34,385 nt of DNA from Verrucomicrobiota bacterium (lineage in GTDB: Bacteria; Verrucomicrobiota; Verrucomicrobiia; Chthoniobacterales; JAFAMB01), in contig JAFBAP010000102.1 of NCBI GenBank assembly GCA_019247695.1, forward strand, positions 1 through 34,385, read 5' to 3'. Positions within the stretch are counted from its first letter, which is position 1; each line of letters starts with the position of its first letter. The notes beneath the pieces were generated by a model. It saw only the letters and a list, made by a program, of their open reading frames with translations, searched no databases and was not told the DNA's origin. This document shows, one piece after another, positions 448 to 29,136 of this stretch. The position numbers were made by a program, and so were the translations under genes.

Positions 448-1644
448 CTACGCAGGCGGGACCGGGTTCGCCTTTGAGGGAAGGATCACCTCAAAACGGC
501 TGCCTTGCCCGAGTTGTGACTGGACGTGCACTTCCCCTCCGAGCATGCCGGCCAGGCGACGGCTGATGGTTAAACCGAGGCCGGTGCCCTGAACCCCTGG
601 AGGCGGTGTGCCGCGTCCGAATTCGGCAAAGACGGCTTCGAGGTTTTCAGGGGCGATACCGATACCGTTGTCCTCGACAATGATTGACCACCAGCGGGAG
701 TCTCGCGGTGCGAACACCAGCCGGACCCAGCGCTTCGCCTTTTTGGGGTCGTGGTATTTGATGGCATTGGAAACCAGGTTGCCGACCACCTGCCGGAGCC
801 GGCGACGATCACTCTCGACCTTCTTCAGGCTGGCGTCGATCCGGAGTTGGAGGTCGACGCCCGTCTCCCGCGCGTAGAGCCGCCAGGCCGCAATCGCATC
901 TTCTGCAAAGTTTCGGACCTCGAACGTTTCCCATTCGGGGTGCGCGCCGCCTGCCAGGAGCAATCCATATTCCCGTAATTCCTCCAGCAGGGCAGCCATG
1001 TCCGCCACGTTGCGTTCACAGAGGGTAAGCATCCGGCGTCGTTCGGTTTCACCCATCCCCTGAAGCCCGGCGGAAATCGCAAAGCCCAGGGCCTGCAGGA
1101 GCCCGCCGAGTTCATGGGTGGCGGCCCGCAAAAGCTGCAAGCGTGACGCGTCGATTTCCGCCAGCCGCTGGTTGGCGGTCGCCAGGCATGCGGCCGCTTC
1201 TTCGAAAAAGCGTTCGGTCGAAGCCACGGCGGCATCCTCGAAAAAACGGAATAACAGGTCCCGCGCCGGTTTGAGCTCCGTTTCGTTCAGCTCATGCTGC
1301 TGCGCGAAGGCGTCCAAGGTCTCAAAGAGAATGATCCGCTGCAGGACACCAAACTCACGAAGCACTTCCCCCGGCCGATAACCTTGCCGTCCACGTTGGC
1401 CGCCGTGCTCCCTGGCCGCCTCCATGACCGCCGTCCTGGGCCCGATGCCATCCTGTTCGCGCAAGTAGCGCCCCAGATCGTCGAATACTTTGGGCAGGTG
1501 ATCGGCTAACTCCTCATCGCTCAGGTGACGGCTCGACGGGAGATCAGAGCTTTGCCGCACGGCATCCAGCCAGAGGCGGGTAAGGCGTTCGCGTTCGTTA
1601 TTCAGGTGGGCGGTTAGCCTGGGTAGTAGTTCTTCGAGAACCAT
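448..1644 (-). CDS. Soluble sensor histidine kinase with RsbRD_N-like sensory domain
   Basis: About 398 residues from the ATG at 1644; a TTG 69 bases upstream would add 23 residues that look unrelated to the domain. The N-terminal 150 residues resemble the RsbRD_N domain (helical, with the family's HGxxRxxQGY and EVLREFGVLQ motifs). A dimerisation helix follows with the phospho-acceptor motif THELGG (His about 177), then a HATPase_c domain with an N-box (NLVSNAIKYHDP), a G1 box (VEDNGIGIAPENL) and a G2 box (GTGLGLTISRRLAGMLGG). No membrane segment is seen, so the sensor is probably cytoplasmic. Autophosphorylation on His is inferred from the family. No cognate response regulator is adjacent: the upstream gene on the same strand is a permease about 290 bases away. 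The signal is unknown. Confidence 0.88.
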   Translation of the reverse strand: MVLEELLPRLTAHLNNERERLTRLWLDAVRQSSDLPSSRHLSDEELADHLPKVFDDLGRYLREQDGIGPRTAVMEAAREHGGQRGRQGYRPGEVLREFGVLQRIILFETLDAFAQQHELNETELKPARDLLFRFFEDAAVASTERFFEEAAACLATANQRLAEIDASRLQLLRAATHELGGLLQALGFAISAGLQGMGETERRRMLTLCERNVADMAALLEELREYGLLLAGGAHPEWETFEVRNFAEDAIAAWRLYARETGVDLQLRIDASLKKVESDRRRLRQVVGNLVSNAIKYHDPKKAKRWVRLVFAPRDSRWWSIIVEDNGIGIAPENLEAVFAEFGRGTPPPGVQGTGLGLTISRRLAGMLGGEVHVQSQLGQGSRFEVILPSKANPVPPA

Positions 1645-1935
1645 TAACGGATGAAAAGGTGTTCGCCCGATGCGTTCATGCCTGATGAAAAGGAGCAGGG
1701 CCGGTAAACGCAAGCCTTTGTACGTGTTTTCCGCGTCCCGCCAGCATTAAGGCAGACCTCTCATATTCACCGTGGCCGGAATAAGTTGGAACGAACCACG
1801 GACGGACGGCATAACAAAGCCGGGTTCGGTCTCCCGTGCCGGCGGGACGCAATACCATGTTTCACCGGGAGAGGCCTGCGGCGAGGGCGGTTGGCCTGGG
1901 CTCCCGGTCACCCCTGGCGGGGAGGCGCGAGCGGG

Positions 1936-3066
1936 TCAATCAGCCCCTTCTTTTGCCCGCCGGGTTACGATTTCCCGCGCCTCTGCGTCGAACTGCCGCT
2001 TATCTTCATGGCGGCGGTGATGCAGGTAAAACTCGCCGATCAGGATTTTGCAAAGCGCCGCAGCCGGCACCACCAGGAAAGCGCCGACGGCGCCGAACAA
2101 CGTTCCCATTGCAAGGGTGAAGAACATGATGATGACGGGATGAAGGTCCATTTGTCTGCCCATCACAAACGGAATCAGCACGTTGGTTTCCACCTGCTGG
2201 ACGAAGAGAATGGCCAGCAAGGCCAGGAAAAAATGGCTGACTCCCAGGCTGGCCGCCACCAGTAGGGCAGGGACGGCGACAACCACAGGACCGACGATCG
2301 GCACGAATTCACCGATGAAGGCGAACACCCCGAAAACGTAGGCCGGTTGCACCCCGACCCAGGCCAGCAGAAGCCCGGTCGTGATGGCGGTGATGACCCC
2401 GTTTATCAAGACGCCCCTGGCCCAGGCGTTCATCTGCTCCATCATCCTTAGAAGCGCCCGCCGCGCCTGGGTGCGGTACCGGGGGGAGACAACCTCCAGG
2501 AAGCTGGCCACCAGCGGTTGCGGGTTGACGAGCAGGAACACCAGCACGAGCGCGGCCAGCGCCACCAGAATCGAGCCGCCCACAACGCTGAGGGTGGATC
2601 GCAGCAGGAAGGTAGCCAGACCGCTGACCTGGGTACCCGCCGCTTGGACCAGATCGCCGGGTTGATCGGGAAAAATCTGTTGGATAAACGGGTAACGTTT
2701 CAAGAATTGATCGGCTTGCCCGTAAACGTGCCGCCAAAGCTCGGGGGCTTGTTGGATCAATTGCTGGACCTGATCCAAGAACGGCGGCAGGAGAAAGGAG
2801 AAGCCTGCGGCCAGCAAAGCCAGGGTGATCAGGCCGAGCAACGCGACCGCCAGGCCCCGCTTAACGCCGTGCCGCTGGAGCATGACAACGAATGGGTTGA
2901 ACACCATCGCCAGGATGAGCGTCACGGCAAAAAGGATGAGGACAAACTGCAACCGCGTTGCCAGCATGAAGCCGATCAGCAACAGGGTGATCAGCCCGAT
3001 CACCCGCCGCAGATCGCCGTAACTGAGCGGCCGGATGGAATCCGAATGGTTGTCTTGGTCCGACAT
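1936..3066 (-). CDS. AI-2E family transporter (PerM/YdiK-type permease)
   Basis: 376 residues starting at ATG 3066. The protein has the family pattern: paired N-terminal membrane helices (about residues 22-60), another pair around 70-92, an amphipathic central region (residues 95-150, rich in Q/L), and a C-terminal block of four or more helices with the conserved ETNVLIPFVMGRQMDLHPV segment followed by FFTLAMGTLFGAVGAFLVVPAAA. Length is typical of the family. Members have been linked to autoinducer-2 export, to sodium/proton exchange or to other small solutes, so the substrate here cannot be named. The charged C-terminal tail (about 30 residues) is cytoplasmic by the positive-inside rule. The gene stands alone; the kinase at 448-1644 lies downstream on the same strand, with a 291-base gap that argues against tight coupling. 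Confidence 0.9.
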   Translation of the reverse strand: MSDQDNHSDSIRPLSYGDLRRVIGLITLLLIGFMLATRLQFVLILFAVTLILAMVFNPFVVMLQRHGVKRGLAVALLGLITLALLAAGFSFLLPPFLDQVQQLIQQAPELWRHVYGQADQFLKRYPFIQQIFPDQPGDLVQAAGTQVSGLATFLLRSTLSVVGGSILVALAALVLVFLLVNPQPLVASFLEVVSPRYRTQARRALLRMMEQMNAWARGVLINGVITAITTGLLLAWVGVQPAYVFGVFAFIGEFVPIVGPVVVAVPALLVAASLGVSHFFLALLAILFVQQVETNVLIPFVMGRQMDLHPVIIMFFTLAMGTLFGAVGAFLVVPAAALCKILIGEFYLHHRRHEDKRQFDAEAREIVTRRAKEGAD

Positions 3067-3434
3067 GGTGCCAACAATGCAGGCTTAACCGTCACCAGCC
3101 AACTCCGGATGCATTTTCGGGGCTGAACGCAGGGGAACCCCTTTAGCAAATCCAACCCAGCAGGCGGGTGTTTGTTTGGATGGGCGTACGGACGTGACGC
3201 CTTAGGAGGGATTGGAGGGCCGGGGGGAACCAGCCGGGGAGGCCTTTCCACCGCGGGTGACCCAAATATAAAACAATATTATTTTAAGTTGCATTTTTTC
3301 GAGGCATTCGCTAAGCGTGCAAGGACTGGCGGCGCCATCGAGACCGTTCCGGTGCGCGACCCGGAGGGGTGGAGTTCCCGGCGCCGGTGGGAAGATACGC
3401 CTGCAAACTCGCGCGAATCGGTTCGCACCAAAAA
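3067..3434. promoter_or_regulatory. Divergent intergenic region with an AT-rich island
   Basis: This 368-base gap separates the permease (minus) from the small unknown gene (plus). Most of it is GC-rich, but about 3259-3303 is a strongly AT-rich island containing TATAAA and TATTAT, far from the local composition. It probably holds promoter elements for one or both flanking genes; I could not fix a convincing -35/-10 pair. No gene is seen inside. Confidence 0.4.
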
Positions 3435-3806
3435 ATGATTACCTATGAAACCGGCACCCCCCATTTTGGCGGCCGAACCGTGGTCCGGCTATCCGCGAAT
3501 GGTGAAGTGCTCGTCGAGCAGAACTGCGGCGGCCGACACAGCGGTTTTAACGAAAAGGCGGATCCGGCCGTGTACCGGGAAATCCTGGTACTCCTGAGAA
3601 AGGCGCGCCGGAGCGTTGCTGACCTGCCCGAACCTGTCCCGGTTCCCGGTGAAACCAGGGTCCGGCTGCGGGCCGCCACCCCGTCGGAGACGATCGACCT
3701 GGAATTTTGGAGTAACCAACGCTGGCGCGATCCTGCCGTGGACCGGTTGATCAGCCGTTTGGAACGGCTGGCGGTTGAATCCTCAGGGGGCATCATCCGT
3801 TTTTGA
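3435..3806 (+). CDS. Small unknown protein, possibly an emfourin-like protease inhibitor
   Basis: 123 residues from ATG 3435; a GTG at 3369 in the same frame would add 22 residues but its GGAGG is too close to be used. I do not recognise the family with certainty. The layout is an N-terminal two-strand section (GGRTVVRLSANGEVLVEQ), a helix (PAVYREILVLLRKARRSVADL), a proline-rich linker (PEPVPVPGE), two more strands (TRVRLRAATPSETIDLEF) and a C-terminal helix (AVDRLISRLERLA). Size and order of elements are like emfourin, the small inhibitor encoded next to M4 proteases of the protealysin group. No signal peptide is seen. Its stop lies 16 bases before the likely ATG of the zinc protease, so the two are almost certainly cotranscribed. 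The inhibitor role is inference from layout and context, not a motif match. Confidence 0.6.
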   Translation: MITYETGTPHFGGRTVVRLSANGEVLVEQNCGGRHSGFNEKADPAVYREILVLLRKARRSVADLPEPVPVPGETRVRLRAATPSETIDLEFWSNQRWRDPAVDRLISRLERLAVESSGGIIRF

Positions 3807-3822
3807 GGTTTCGCAACGCGGT

Positions 3823-4563
3823 ATGCCAGATCCACACCTCCGCATCAGCCGGCGAGTCGCGGACGCGCCGTACGGCTGGGCGGCTTCTTATCGCGCGTTG
3901 CTTTCGCCGGGGCAGGTCGCCCTTGCTTTACGCTTGCAACTCCGGCCCTGGCCAGGAGTTACGAGCGCCGGCCTCGATCAGGTCCGACACGAGACCGAGA
4001 GGGCGGTTGCGCACTATTTCGACCAACGCTTTATCGTGGAGCAGGAAAGCGGCCGCCAACGACCGGTTCGAGTCCAGGTGGAATTTGTGGCTTCGGACCC
4101 GGACCTGAGCGTGGCTGTGCATGCCGGGTTCGGACGCGACAACTTGCAGCATTGGTTCGTGGACTCCGGGGTAATCGTCAGAGCGCACGAGGTGGGGCAC
4201 GCTTTTGGCCTTAAAGACGAGTACGTGGATCCGTTGGCGGCCAACCGCGCGACCACAGGTACAGCGGGCGTCTTCCAGGACCACTCGTTGATGGGCGATT
4301 TTCAGCAGGAGGGCATCGCCTTGGCCGAGCTCAAACCCAGGCACGCCCTTGAGATCGTGCGTGGGTTGAGCGTCCACTTTGGAGGCGACTTCAACATCAT
4401 GCCGGCCGGAGCTGCCGGCAGAGTGGCTCGCCTGCAAACCGGCTCTGAAGCAGCGACCAAGCCCGGCCCTGCGGTCGCCGGTATGCAATCTTTACGCGAG
4501 CTGGCCCGGGGCTTTGACGCGCCTCGCCCGGGTCAGGGTTGCTCGGGCCGGTTACGCCCGTGA
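3823..4563 (+). CDS. Metzincin-like zinc metalloprotease
   Basis: 246 residues from ATG 3823; a TTG at 3775 overlaps the upstream gene and is less likely. Around residue 124 is HEVGHAFGLKDEY, which fits HExxHxxGxxD, the extended zinc site of metzincins in which the third ligand is Asp rather than His (as in snapalysin). About 25 residues later SLMGDF supplies a plausible Met-turn. The N-terminal part (residues 1-120) contains a helix (GLDQVRHETERAVAHYFDQRF) and strands before the active-site helix. No signal peptide or membrane segment is visible, so the enzyme either acts in the cytoplasm or leaves by another route. Zinc-dependent peptide hydrolysis is inferred from the motif; substrate unknown. 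The last 45 residues look disordered. The small protein just upstream may restrain it. Confidence 0.72.
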   Translation: MPDPHLRISRRVADAPYGWAASYRALLSPGQVALALRLQLRPWPGVTSAGLDQVRHETERAVAHYFDQRFIVEQESGRQRPVRVQVEFVASDPDLSVAVHAGFGRDNLQHWFVDSGVIVRAHEVGHAFGLKDEYVDPLAANRATTGTAGVFQDHSLMGDFQQEGIALAELKPRHALEIVRGLSVHFGGDFNIMPAGAAGRVARLQTGSEAATKPGPAVAGMQSLRELARGFDAPRPGQGCSGRLRP

Positions 4564-4629: not shown

Positions 4630-4733
4630 AATAGAAGTTTGTTAAATGGTGACATAAAGGCTGGCTGGAAAGGCCTGCGCGAAACTAGGTACTAGACAAG
4701 CATATTGATCCCTTGGTCCCCCAATTTTCCGTT

Positions 4734-6854
4734 ATGAAAACCGCGTTTTTGTTTGCGAGCTTGGCGCTGAGCGCCTTTGCCCTTGGCGGGCTTAGCCCGG
4801 CGCAGGATAATAATCAGCCGCCGCCCCAATCGGCTTCGCTGGAAGACGAGGTTGCGCAGTTGCAACGCCAGCAGCAAGTCATGCAGTGGCAACTGGATGA
4901 TCTGCGCAAGCAGGTAGCGGCGTTACAGCAGGCCATCGACCGGCTTGGGCGGGGCGGTTCGGCCCAGACCGCGGAAAGCGCACCCGCACCCGAATCCCGA
5001 GGTCAAAACGGGCCTGGTCCCACGCCGGCAACGGCTTCGTCTGACGAAGGGCAAGGCGGCGGTAACGTGAATTCGTACGCCCTGTTCTACACCCGGCTCC
5101 AATCGCAAGGTAAATGGTTGCAAGATCCTAGTTACGGGTATGTCTGGCAGCCGTCGAGGGCCGCCGAGGATCAGAACTGGCGTCCGTACACCGACGGGCA
5201 CTGGGTATACACCGACCGCGGCTGGACCTGGGTTTCAAACGAAGATTTCGGGTGGGCATGCTACCATTACGGCCGTTGGGCACGCCGCTCTGACACCGGT
5301 TGGGTCTGGGTGCCCGGAAACGAATGGGGGCCGGCCTGGGTTTCCTGGCGCGAGGGTGAGGGGCAAGGTCAAGACAGGGGGTATATCGGTTGGGCTCCGC
5401 TGCCGCCGGAGGCTGAGGTAAACCAGAACGTACGGATTGAGGGTTGGGCGGATAATTACTATGACATCGGCCCCGCAGCGTATGTTTTCGTGCGCGCCGC
5501 CGATCTGGCGCAGCCGAGTTACCGCCGGGTGGTCGTGCCGCCGACCGAAAACGAAACGATCATCGTCAACACGCGCAATGTAACCAACATCCGCTATAGC
5601 AACCGGGGCTTTGATGTAGGCGGCCCGGATTACACGCGTCTTGAGCAGGAAGCAAACGTACGCATCCCTCGTTACAACCTGGCTTACACCACGCCGGAAC
5701 GGGGAGAGGACTTCAGGACGGTCGTTCGAGGAAACCAGCTGGAAGTCTACGCGCCGCCTCAGAGGTTGCAGGCAGAGTCCGCGGCGCGACCCGAGGTCGC
5801 ACGGACGTTGACGCGGGCGACCATCGACCGGGGCTGGCGTGAATTGGATCAGACCCGAGCGGCGGAGTTACGGCAGACTTTTGAGCGCCAGGCACCGGTG
5901 CCGCCCGGGTTGCCGCCGAGCAGGGTGGAGCGGGCCCGGACGGCCGCCGGTGAAGTGGTGCAACCCGCGCAACCGGCAGGGGCTGCTCCTCAACCAGGGA
6001 CCACTCCGGGCCAAGCCGTGGGCGCCGCAGCCCGTGAGGGCGCTACGCCGGCCCGGGCCATCGGTGCGCCGGCCCGGGAAGGAGCCACGCCCGCGCAGGC
6101 CGTAGGTGCGCCGGCCCGGGAAGGAGCCACGCCCGCGCAGGCGGTGGGCGCTCCGGCTCGGGAGGGCGCCACGCCCGCGCAGGCGGTGGGCGCTCCGGGT
6201 CGAGCCGGGACCCGCACTCCTCAGGCGGAAGCCACCCCCGCGCAGGCGGAAGCCACGCCCGCCGCACGAACGGCAGCAACGCCTCAGGGCCGCGCGGAAC
6301 CGCAACGGGCAGCTTCTCCCGCGGTGGCCAGGGGCAACGCGACTCCTGAGCCGCGGCCGGCTAACCCGGACAACCGGCAGGAACGGGACCTGGAGCGACG
6401 AACAGAGAATGAAAACGGCCGCACGGGCGAGCCTGCACGAACGTCACGCGAAGCGGAACGGCCGGCCGTATCCGAACGTGCTACCGGAAACCAGCCTGCG
6501 CGTGAGCCGTCATCCAATACGAATGAAGAAAGATCACGGTCAACCCCCGCGGTCCGTGAGCAATCGGTGAACGCGCAGGAGAGGCGGGAAGCACCGAAAC
6601 GCGAGGAGGAGGCCGCCGGCACGGAACGGTCACGAGAGACGTCGAGACGGGAAACCCCGGCCACCGGCACGGGCGAAGCTGAGAAGCCGAAACATGAAGC
6701 CGGCGAGCGCGGCGCGACGACCTCAGCACCCAAGCACGTCGACAAGGAGAATGGTGCATCCGAGCGCGAATCGCAGCACCATGAAGCGGCGCCTGCCAAG
6801 CATCATGCCGATGACGAAGGCAAGCATCACGAAGGTCCGGCAAAGTCCGAATAG
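4734..6854 (+). CDS. Secreted coiled-coil / DUF6600-like repeat protein
   Basis: 706 residues from ATG 4734, chosen over an in-frame TTG at 4713 because a clean signal peptide (MKTAFLFASLALSAFALGG) begins there. After it comes a coiled coil (about residues 33-76, heptads of L/Q/V), then a Trp/Tyr-rich domain (about 113-235) with the repeated pattern WxPY-GHWVYT-GWTWVS-GWACYHYGRW-GWVWVPG-WGPAWVSW, which matches DUF6600-type proteins. The C-terminal half is low-complexity: five 14-residue Ala/Pro/Gly repeats (residues 422-491), then a long charged Arg/Glu-rich tail ending in His/Lys/Glu. Probably periplasmic or surface-attached; no enzyme motif is seen. DUF6600 function is unknown. It stands alone, with a hairpin on either side. 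The tail is probably disordered and may bind polymers or surfaces (speculative). Confidence 0.82.
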   Translation: MKTAFLFASLALSAFALGGLSPAQDNNQPPPQSASLEDEVAQLQRQQQVMQWQLDDLRKQVAALQQAIDRLGRGGSAQTAESAPAPESRGQNGPGPTPATASSDEGQGGGNVNSYALFYTRLQSQGKWLQDPSYGYVWQPSRAAEDQNWRPYTDGHWVYTDRGWTWVSNEDFGWACYHYGRWARRSDTGWVWVPGNEWGPAWVSWREGEGQGQDRGYIGWAPLPPEAEVNQNVRIEGWADNYYDIGPAAYVFVRAADLAQPSYRRVVVPPTENETIIVNTRNVTNIRYSNRGFDVGGPDYTRLEQEANVRIPRYNLAYTTPERGEDFRTVVRGNQLEVYAPPQRLQAESAARPEVARTLTRATIDRGWRELDQTRAAELRQTFERQAPVPPGLPPSRVERARTAAGEVVQPAQPAGAAPQPGTTPGQAVGAAAREGATPARAIGAPAREGATPAQAVGAPAREGATPAQAVGAPAREGATPAQAVGAPGRAGTRTPQAEATPAQAEATPAARTAATPQGRAEPQRAASPAVARGNATPEPRPANPDNRQERDLERRTENENGRTGEPARTSREAERPAVSERATGNQPAREPSSNTNEERSRSTPAVREQSVNAQERREAPKREEEAAGTERSRETSRRETPATGTGEAEKPKHEAGERGATTSAPKHVDKENGASERESQHHEAAPAKHHADDEGKHHEGPAKSE
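5997..6206 (+). repeat. Five tandem 42-bp repeats inside the DUF6600 gene
   Basis: Five in-frame copies of a 42-bp unit encode a 14-residue unit close to GATPAQAVGAPARE. The middle copies are nearly identical at DNA level; the first and last are diverged, a pattern typical of copy-number change by slippage or unequal recombination. Loss or gain of a unit keeps the reading frame. Confidence 0.85.
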
Positions 6855-28888: not shown

Positions 28889-28908
28889 GACCACGGCTAT
28901 TTTGAGGT

Positions 28909-28994
28909 GGCGGGTGGCGGGTGTCGAGTGTCGAGTGGCGGGTGGCGGGTGGCGGGTCACACGGCGACCACGGCAAAGAAAGTTCGGGGTTCGG
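28909..28994 (+). repeat. Seven exact heptamers plus composite CACGGCG/GTTCGG repeat, copy 2
   Basis: From 28909 to 28957 there are exactly seven 7-base units: GGCGGGT twice, GTCGAGT twice, GGCGGGT three times. The last one runs into TCACACGGCGACCACGGC (28957-28974), an AAAGAAA spacer, and GTTCGGGGTTCGG (to 28994). The array starts 20 bases upstream of the ATG of the sigma-54 activator, so it lies in that gene's leader or promoter. Confidence 0.8.
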
Positions 28995-29063: not shown

Positions 29064-29136
29064 TGGAGCCTAGGGGATTCGAACCCCTGACCTCCTCAAT
29101 GCCATTGAGGCGCTCTACCAACTGAGCTAAGACCCC
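29064..29136 (-). tRNA. tRNA-Ala (anticodon GGC)
   Basis: 73 bases on the minus strand that fold as a complete cloverleaf. The acceptor stem GGGGTCT pairs with AGGCTCC (two G-T pairs), with discriminator A. D arm GCTC-AGTTGGTA-GAGC; anticodon stem CCTCA/TGAGG around loop ATGGCAT, giving anticodon GGC (reads GCC/GCU, alanine); T arm AGGGG-TTCGAAT-CCCCT. G1 is at 29136 and the discriminator at 29064. The 3' CCA is not encoded. The gene stands alone, flanked by repeats. Confidence 0.97.

Follow-up and report, generated by a model that had tools for sequence, protein, structure and literature searches.

A small gene conserved beside a metzincin-type Asp-zincin gene in Verrucomicrobiota: a candidate protease-inhibitor pair

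Two genes that lie almost end to end in a Verrucomicrobiota genome raise the question of whether a small protein and the zinc protease encoded directly behind it belong together, whether the small protein holds the protease in check, and whether such a pair is of a kind already known. The window (the whole stretch of DNA analysed, 34,385 nucleotides) carries both genes on its plus strand; they are called P1 and P2 here, and the features needed below are as follows.

3435..3806, plus strand: P1, small partner gene (ORF; ATG at 3435, TGA at 3804-3806, 123 aa)
3438..3479, plus strand: P1 N-terminal segment ITYETGTPHFGGRT (residues 2-15), where conservation within the family is highest
3807..3822, plus strand: P1/P2 intergenic gap, 16 bases
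3823..4563, plus strand: P2, putative Asp-zincin metallopeptidase (ORF; ATG at 3823, TGA at 4561-4563, 246 aa)
4153..4155, plus strand: P2 Trp111, invariant in the family alignments, about 11 residues N-terminal of the zinc motif
4186..4218, plus strand: P2 zinc motif HEVGHAFGLKD, with His122, Glu123, His126 and Asp132
4285..4296, plus strand: P2 SLMG, candidate Met-turn (Met157), residues 155-158, 25 residues past the Asp
4408..4560, plus strand: P2 C-terminal tail (residues 196-246), fast-evolving and absent from distant relatives

An earlier reading of this DNA from its letters alone (the sequence-only reading) had described a gene of 123 residues 16 bases upstream of a second gene, and the ORF coordinates bear out both size and spacing. 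The HExxHxxGxxD motif that it saw in P2, with SLMG nearby and no secretion signal, is likewise present in the translated ORF (the signal was judged by eye). Inspection by eye found no hydrophobic N-terminal segment or signal peptide in either protein. The start of P2 is backed by a sister genome, where the similar region likewise opens with this Met (MPDPHLRI). No terminator was found inside the 16-base gap, and a promoter scan returned nothing above chance. P2 is a stand-alone protein without a delivery domain (RHS, T6SS, T7SS or similar), and within the window no delivery or secretion gene adjoins the pair. The strand-helix-strand-helix layout proposed for P1 is roughly right, although a low-confidence model reads it as strand-strand-helix-strand-strand-helix (AlphaFold, pLDDT 40 for P1 and 39 for P2, each from a two-sequence alignment).

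Several other features of the window can be recorded here. A DUF6600 protein with a coiled-coil stretch is encoded at 4713-6854 and stays beside P1-P2 in the sister genome; its gene contains a 42-base tandem repeat in an Ala/Pro-rich region (6030-6228). Elsewhere lie a tRNA-Ala (GGC) gene (29064-29136, minus strand) and a 7-base tandem repeat, GGTGGCG, in about 7 copies (28906-28957) at the edge of a sigma-54-type response regulator gene.

What kind of protease would P2 be? Its place among the Asp-zincins of metzincin clan MA follows from the HExxHxxGxxD motif at residues 122-132 (residues 122-134 read HEVGHAFGLKDEY). In an alignment of 12 diverse relatives, the zinc motif retains its two His, the Glu and the Asp without exception, and 11 of the 12 have the Met; the invariant set of this 12-member family consists of one Trp, HExxH and the Asp. 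In Pfam and NCBIfam, neither P1 nor P2 scores above the curated cut-off of any model, and PADLOC and PHROGs returned no match for either. For P2, the Pfam and NCBIfam searches gave only sub-threshold matches around the zinc motif, to M6, reprolysin, M7, Zincin_1 and TIGR03296. The M7 (snapalysin) models score 12.9 bits against a cut-off of 25 (PF02031) and 13.3 against 300 (NF033628), and those for M6 (immune inhibitor A) score 13.4 against 22 (PF05547) and 21.2 against 110.8 (TIGR03296). The best PDB match of the 12-member family profile is snapalysin (1c7k, E 2e-4), over the motif only. Based on these sub-threshold matches and the motif-only match to snapalysin, P2 is, as judged from its sequence, a metzincin-type Asp-zincin that falls in none of the curated families searched.

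Snapalysin (MEROPS M7, 1c7k) and the M6 immune inhibitor A share with P2 the HExxHxxGxxD motif, the Asp as third ligand and a Met after it. However, the similarity of P2 to them is limited to the motif and falls far under the M7 and M6 cut-offs, and P2 has no signal. The M7 and M6 families are secreted. By the published definition, Asp-zincins are said to lack a Met-turn (PMC3890501). Snapalysin has a conserved Met about ten residues after the ligand (PMC3890501), whereas the Met of P2 sits 25 residues after the ligand Asp.

The case for a genuine pair comes from comparison between genomes. Both genes are kept in a same-genus genome (JAFAUY010000010.1; G396, also L004), at 67% identity for P1 and 72% for P2, arguing that neither reading frame is a product of chance; the order is the same as in the window and the gap is 80 bases. 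Substitutions show that P1 and P2 are under purifying selection, with dN/dS values of about 0.46 for P1, about 0.20 for residues 1-195 of P2 and about 0.60 for the C-terminal tail of P2. A distant genome from another Verrucomicrobiota family (G374) contains a further P1 homologue, with 28% identity over 89 residues (BLASTP E 1e-8) and a local alignment score of 83, compared to 27 +/- 4.4 in 1,000 shuffles. Here the P2-type domain forms the end of an ORF of about 660 aa, which is cut by the start of the contig, and the P1 homologue overlaps the end of the P2-type gene, so that the order is opposite to that of the window. This homologue carries a signal peptide, unlike the P1 of the window. The reversed order, the overlap and the signal peptide suggest that the link between P1 and P2 has survived both a rearrangement and a change of compartment.

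The search for P1 covered 387 genomes of the phylum, 213 of the order and 28 of the order to which G374 belongs; these sets overlap and amount to roughly 600 Verrucomicrobiota genomes. P1 is present in three of them (the window genome G000, G396 and G374), directly beside a P2-type gene in all three, and the P1 family thus consists of three members only. Residues I2, T3, Y4, G7, F11, G13, R14 and T15 are invariant in their alignment. Weak matches in two further genomes (G266 and G177, E 0.006) proved to be low-complexity frames overlapping other long ORFs and were discarded as spurious. The sequence-only reading had made its proposal depend on whether homologues of the two genes are neighbours. 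They are, in a sample that is small but includes one distant genome with the order reversed, and the adjacency in two separate lineages marks a pair that is genuine and has been kept in evolution. Because P1 occurs in only three genomes, always beside P2 and including the distant one, the functional link between the two is well supported at the level of sequence.

The most probable explanation (with a probability of roughly 0.55) is that P1 and P2 belong together as a cognate pair, in which a stand-alone Asp-zincin would be matched with a dedicated inhibitor or immunity protein as a toxin/immunity-type unit. P1 is probably the dedicated inhibitor of P2, since its relatives always lie beside such a protease in the genomes searched. 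A toxin/immunity-type unit seems most likely because the protease domain belongs to a family that polymorphic-toxin proteins use (see below). According to this model, P2 would be a zinc endopeptidase in which His122, His126 and Asp132 bind zinc, Glu123 acts as the base and Met157 provides the Met-turn; its protease domain would originate from the family used in polymorphic-toxin proteins. Encoded upstream, P1 would be synthesised before P2 and in the same compartment, and by binding P2 it would protect the proteins of the cell from cleavage until the protease is released or delivered. The faster evolution of P1 than of the P2 catalytic core, under purifying selection, was counted in favour of an inhibitor or immunity role, where such a pattern is common.

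No known inhibitor family matches P1, nor was any of the known reactive-site motifs of inhibitors recognised in it. Two other leads on P1 were rejected: an internal duplication (DPAV..L repeated) gave P = 0.06 for P1 and P = 0.16 for its counterpart in the sister genome, and the comparison with BsuPI (PDB 3isy) was not significant (E 0.26).

A small partner in the same operon, with conserved adjacency, could also be a folding helper, that is, a detached prodomain-like chaperone or an adaptor that binds P2 and either aids its folding or hands it over to a target. It is common for a zinc protease to be synthesised with a pro-region, either fused to it or separate, and no cysteine-switch propeptide is obvious in P2 by eye. 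However, inhibition explains the link between P1 and P2 equally, and P1 matches no known chaperone or prodomain family in Pfam or NCBIfam, so a helper role appears unlikely.

It is quite improbable that P1 is instead a specific substrate of P2, with fragments that carry a signal. Such a role has been proposed for the Listeria Mtz/Tim pair, in which the metzincin Mtz likely cleaves its adjacent TIMP-like partner Tim (PMC8235301), and the adjacency data are compatible with it. However, P1 is compact, and a comparison of the two same-genus genomes shows it to be conserved from end to end, not at one cleavage site.

The sequence-only reading had likened P1 to emfourin, and sequence comparison gave this likeness no support. 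Protealysin-emfourin resembles P1-P2 in that the zinc protease is intracellular and has a small partner beside it (PMC9505478), and it has been proposed to be toxin/immunity-like (PMC9505478). However, protealysin is an M4 protease of the thermolysin type, whereas P2, with HExxHxxGxxD and no M4 match in Pfam or NCBIfam, appears to be an Asp-zincin, and P1 is not detectably related to emfourin in sequence. The Pfam model PF20242 (Emfourin) gave no match to P1 at E values up to 1, and hhalign of the P1 family against three emfourin-like proteins gave E 0.24 with a probability below 1%. One might still take P1 for a highly diverged emfourin, and the pair for a real protealysin/emfourin-type system, given that both are small alpha/beta proteins with an initial strand and then a G-F-G segment (on inspection) and that one P1/emfourin comparison reached z 4.5 against shuffles. 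The other comparisons between the two families gave z values of -0.5 to 2.0, and the window genome has a separate pair (G000:C2) in which an emfourin-like ORF follows an M4-protease gene, making this reading very improbable. In that separate pair (L016, G000:C2:52500-55832), the M4 gene is protealysin-like and the emfourin-like ORF has a signal peptide and scores 24.1 bits, under the PF20242 cut-off of 27.

Least likely of all is that P1 and P2 are mere operon neighbours with unrelated roles: conservation within the genus alone could reflect short divergence, and the downstream DUF6600 gene is likewise kept in the sister genome, but the two genes are neighbours again in another family, with their order reversed, and P1 is found nowhere else among the roughly 600 genomes.

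If P1 and P2 are a cognate protease-inhibitor pair, how new would that be? A pair built on a metzincin had been expected to differ from known systems, but operons of a metzincin with an adjacent inhibitor have been described (bamI-mep72, AprA/AprI and a PotempinA-like/karilysin-like pair; PMC4334185, PMC13340143). In Pseudomonas aeruginosa, bamI lies upstream of mep72 and is cotranscribed with it, and BamI binds the metzincin Mep72 and counteracts its toxicity in E. coli; the AprA/AprI pair is cited in the same paper (PMC4334185). As in P1-P2, the small bamI gene is directly upstream of the metzincin gene. A small gene that adjoins a metzincin gene and is conserved together with it is found in the window, in the same-genus genome and, reversed, in G374, consistent with membership in the bamI-mep72 kind. 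Mep72, however, has 599 residues and contains carbohydrate-binding domains as well as a secretion signal (PMC4334185), whereas P1 and P2 lack secretion signals. The Tse2-Tsi2 system of Stenotrophomonas rhizophila places a PotempinA-like immunity gene beside a karilysin-like T6SS effector gene, and so resembles P1-P2 in joining a metzincin-type effector to an adjacent inhibitor-like immunity gene (PMC13340143). Its effector is fused to PAAR and its immunity protein has a signal peptide (PMC13340143), whereas the window pair adjoins no PAAR or T6SS part. The general kind, a bacterial metzincin with an adjacent protein inhibitor, is therefore already known, and it is the P1 and P2 families that are uncatalogued in the libraries searched.

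Relatives of the P2 domain also occur in proteins of a very different architecture. Polymorphic-toxin metallopeptidases (Tox-MPTases and PVC-metallopeptidase) are zincin domains of RHS and other toxins that serve as toxins or as releasing peptidases (PMC3482391). The PVC-metallopeptidase signature is HExxHxxQ-E (PMC3482391), as opposed to HExxHxxGxxD in P2, and neither P2 nor its relatives match a Pfam Tox-MPTase model. P2-related domains are found inside giant ORFs of Streptomyces plasmids (L012, L013, L017, L018, L066 and L067; up to a 59-kb CDS). In two of these (L012 and L013) the zincin domain lies just N-terminal of an EndoU nuclease domain, which suggests either a toxin-releasing protease or a tandem toxin. 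One Streptomyces ORF with a P2-type domain is annotated as glutaminase family, further members lie on other Streptomyces plasmids, and in another genome (G287) the domain is part of an adhesin-like protein with no visible partner. More distant versions form the C-terminus of RHS proteins (L022, minus strand, 1006-2739; L054, minus strand, 929-3270). Each of the two is directly followed by a signal-peptide ORF with no Pfam match, where an immunity gene would normally lie, and they are candidate metallopeptidase toxin/immunity pairs. Of these immunity-like ORFs, that of L022 is unrelated to P1; for that of L054 the comparison was by eye only.

A possible third instance of the pair is found on the Paraburkholderia plasmid p22B1P2 (L011, 1785-3908), which encodes a 285-aa repeat-rich protein, a small ORF of 164 aa and a P2-type protease; the small ORF and the beginning of the protease gene share 4 bases. 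P1 is the best non-self match of this ORF (P0002) among 2,276 ORFs, but at E 1.9 and with profile scores near zero. Its homology to P1 was not demonstrable, and the z values (5.4 against one P1 member, about 0 against another) are suggestive only. Searches of phage records with the Paraburkholderia protease, and scans of viral contigs with P1 and P2, returned nothing.

Few natural protein inhibitors of Asp-zincins are known; sermetstatin, which inhibits snapalysin, is one. P1 is a candidate for a new inhibitor family directed against these enzymes. A bolder and still doubtful extension is that P1 founds a new inhibitor family with a new inhibitory fold, specific for an unclassified Asp-zincin family that is widespread in polymorphic toxins, and that a protease toxin/immunity module has been domesticated in the stand-alone cytoplasmic pairs. 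The pair would also tie an unclassified zinc-protease family, which occurs in giant toxin-like proteins of Streptomyces and in RHS proteins, to a small partner that could be its antidote.
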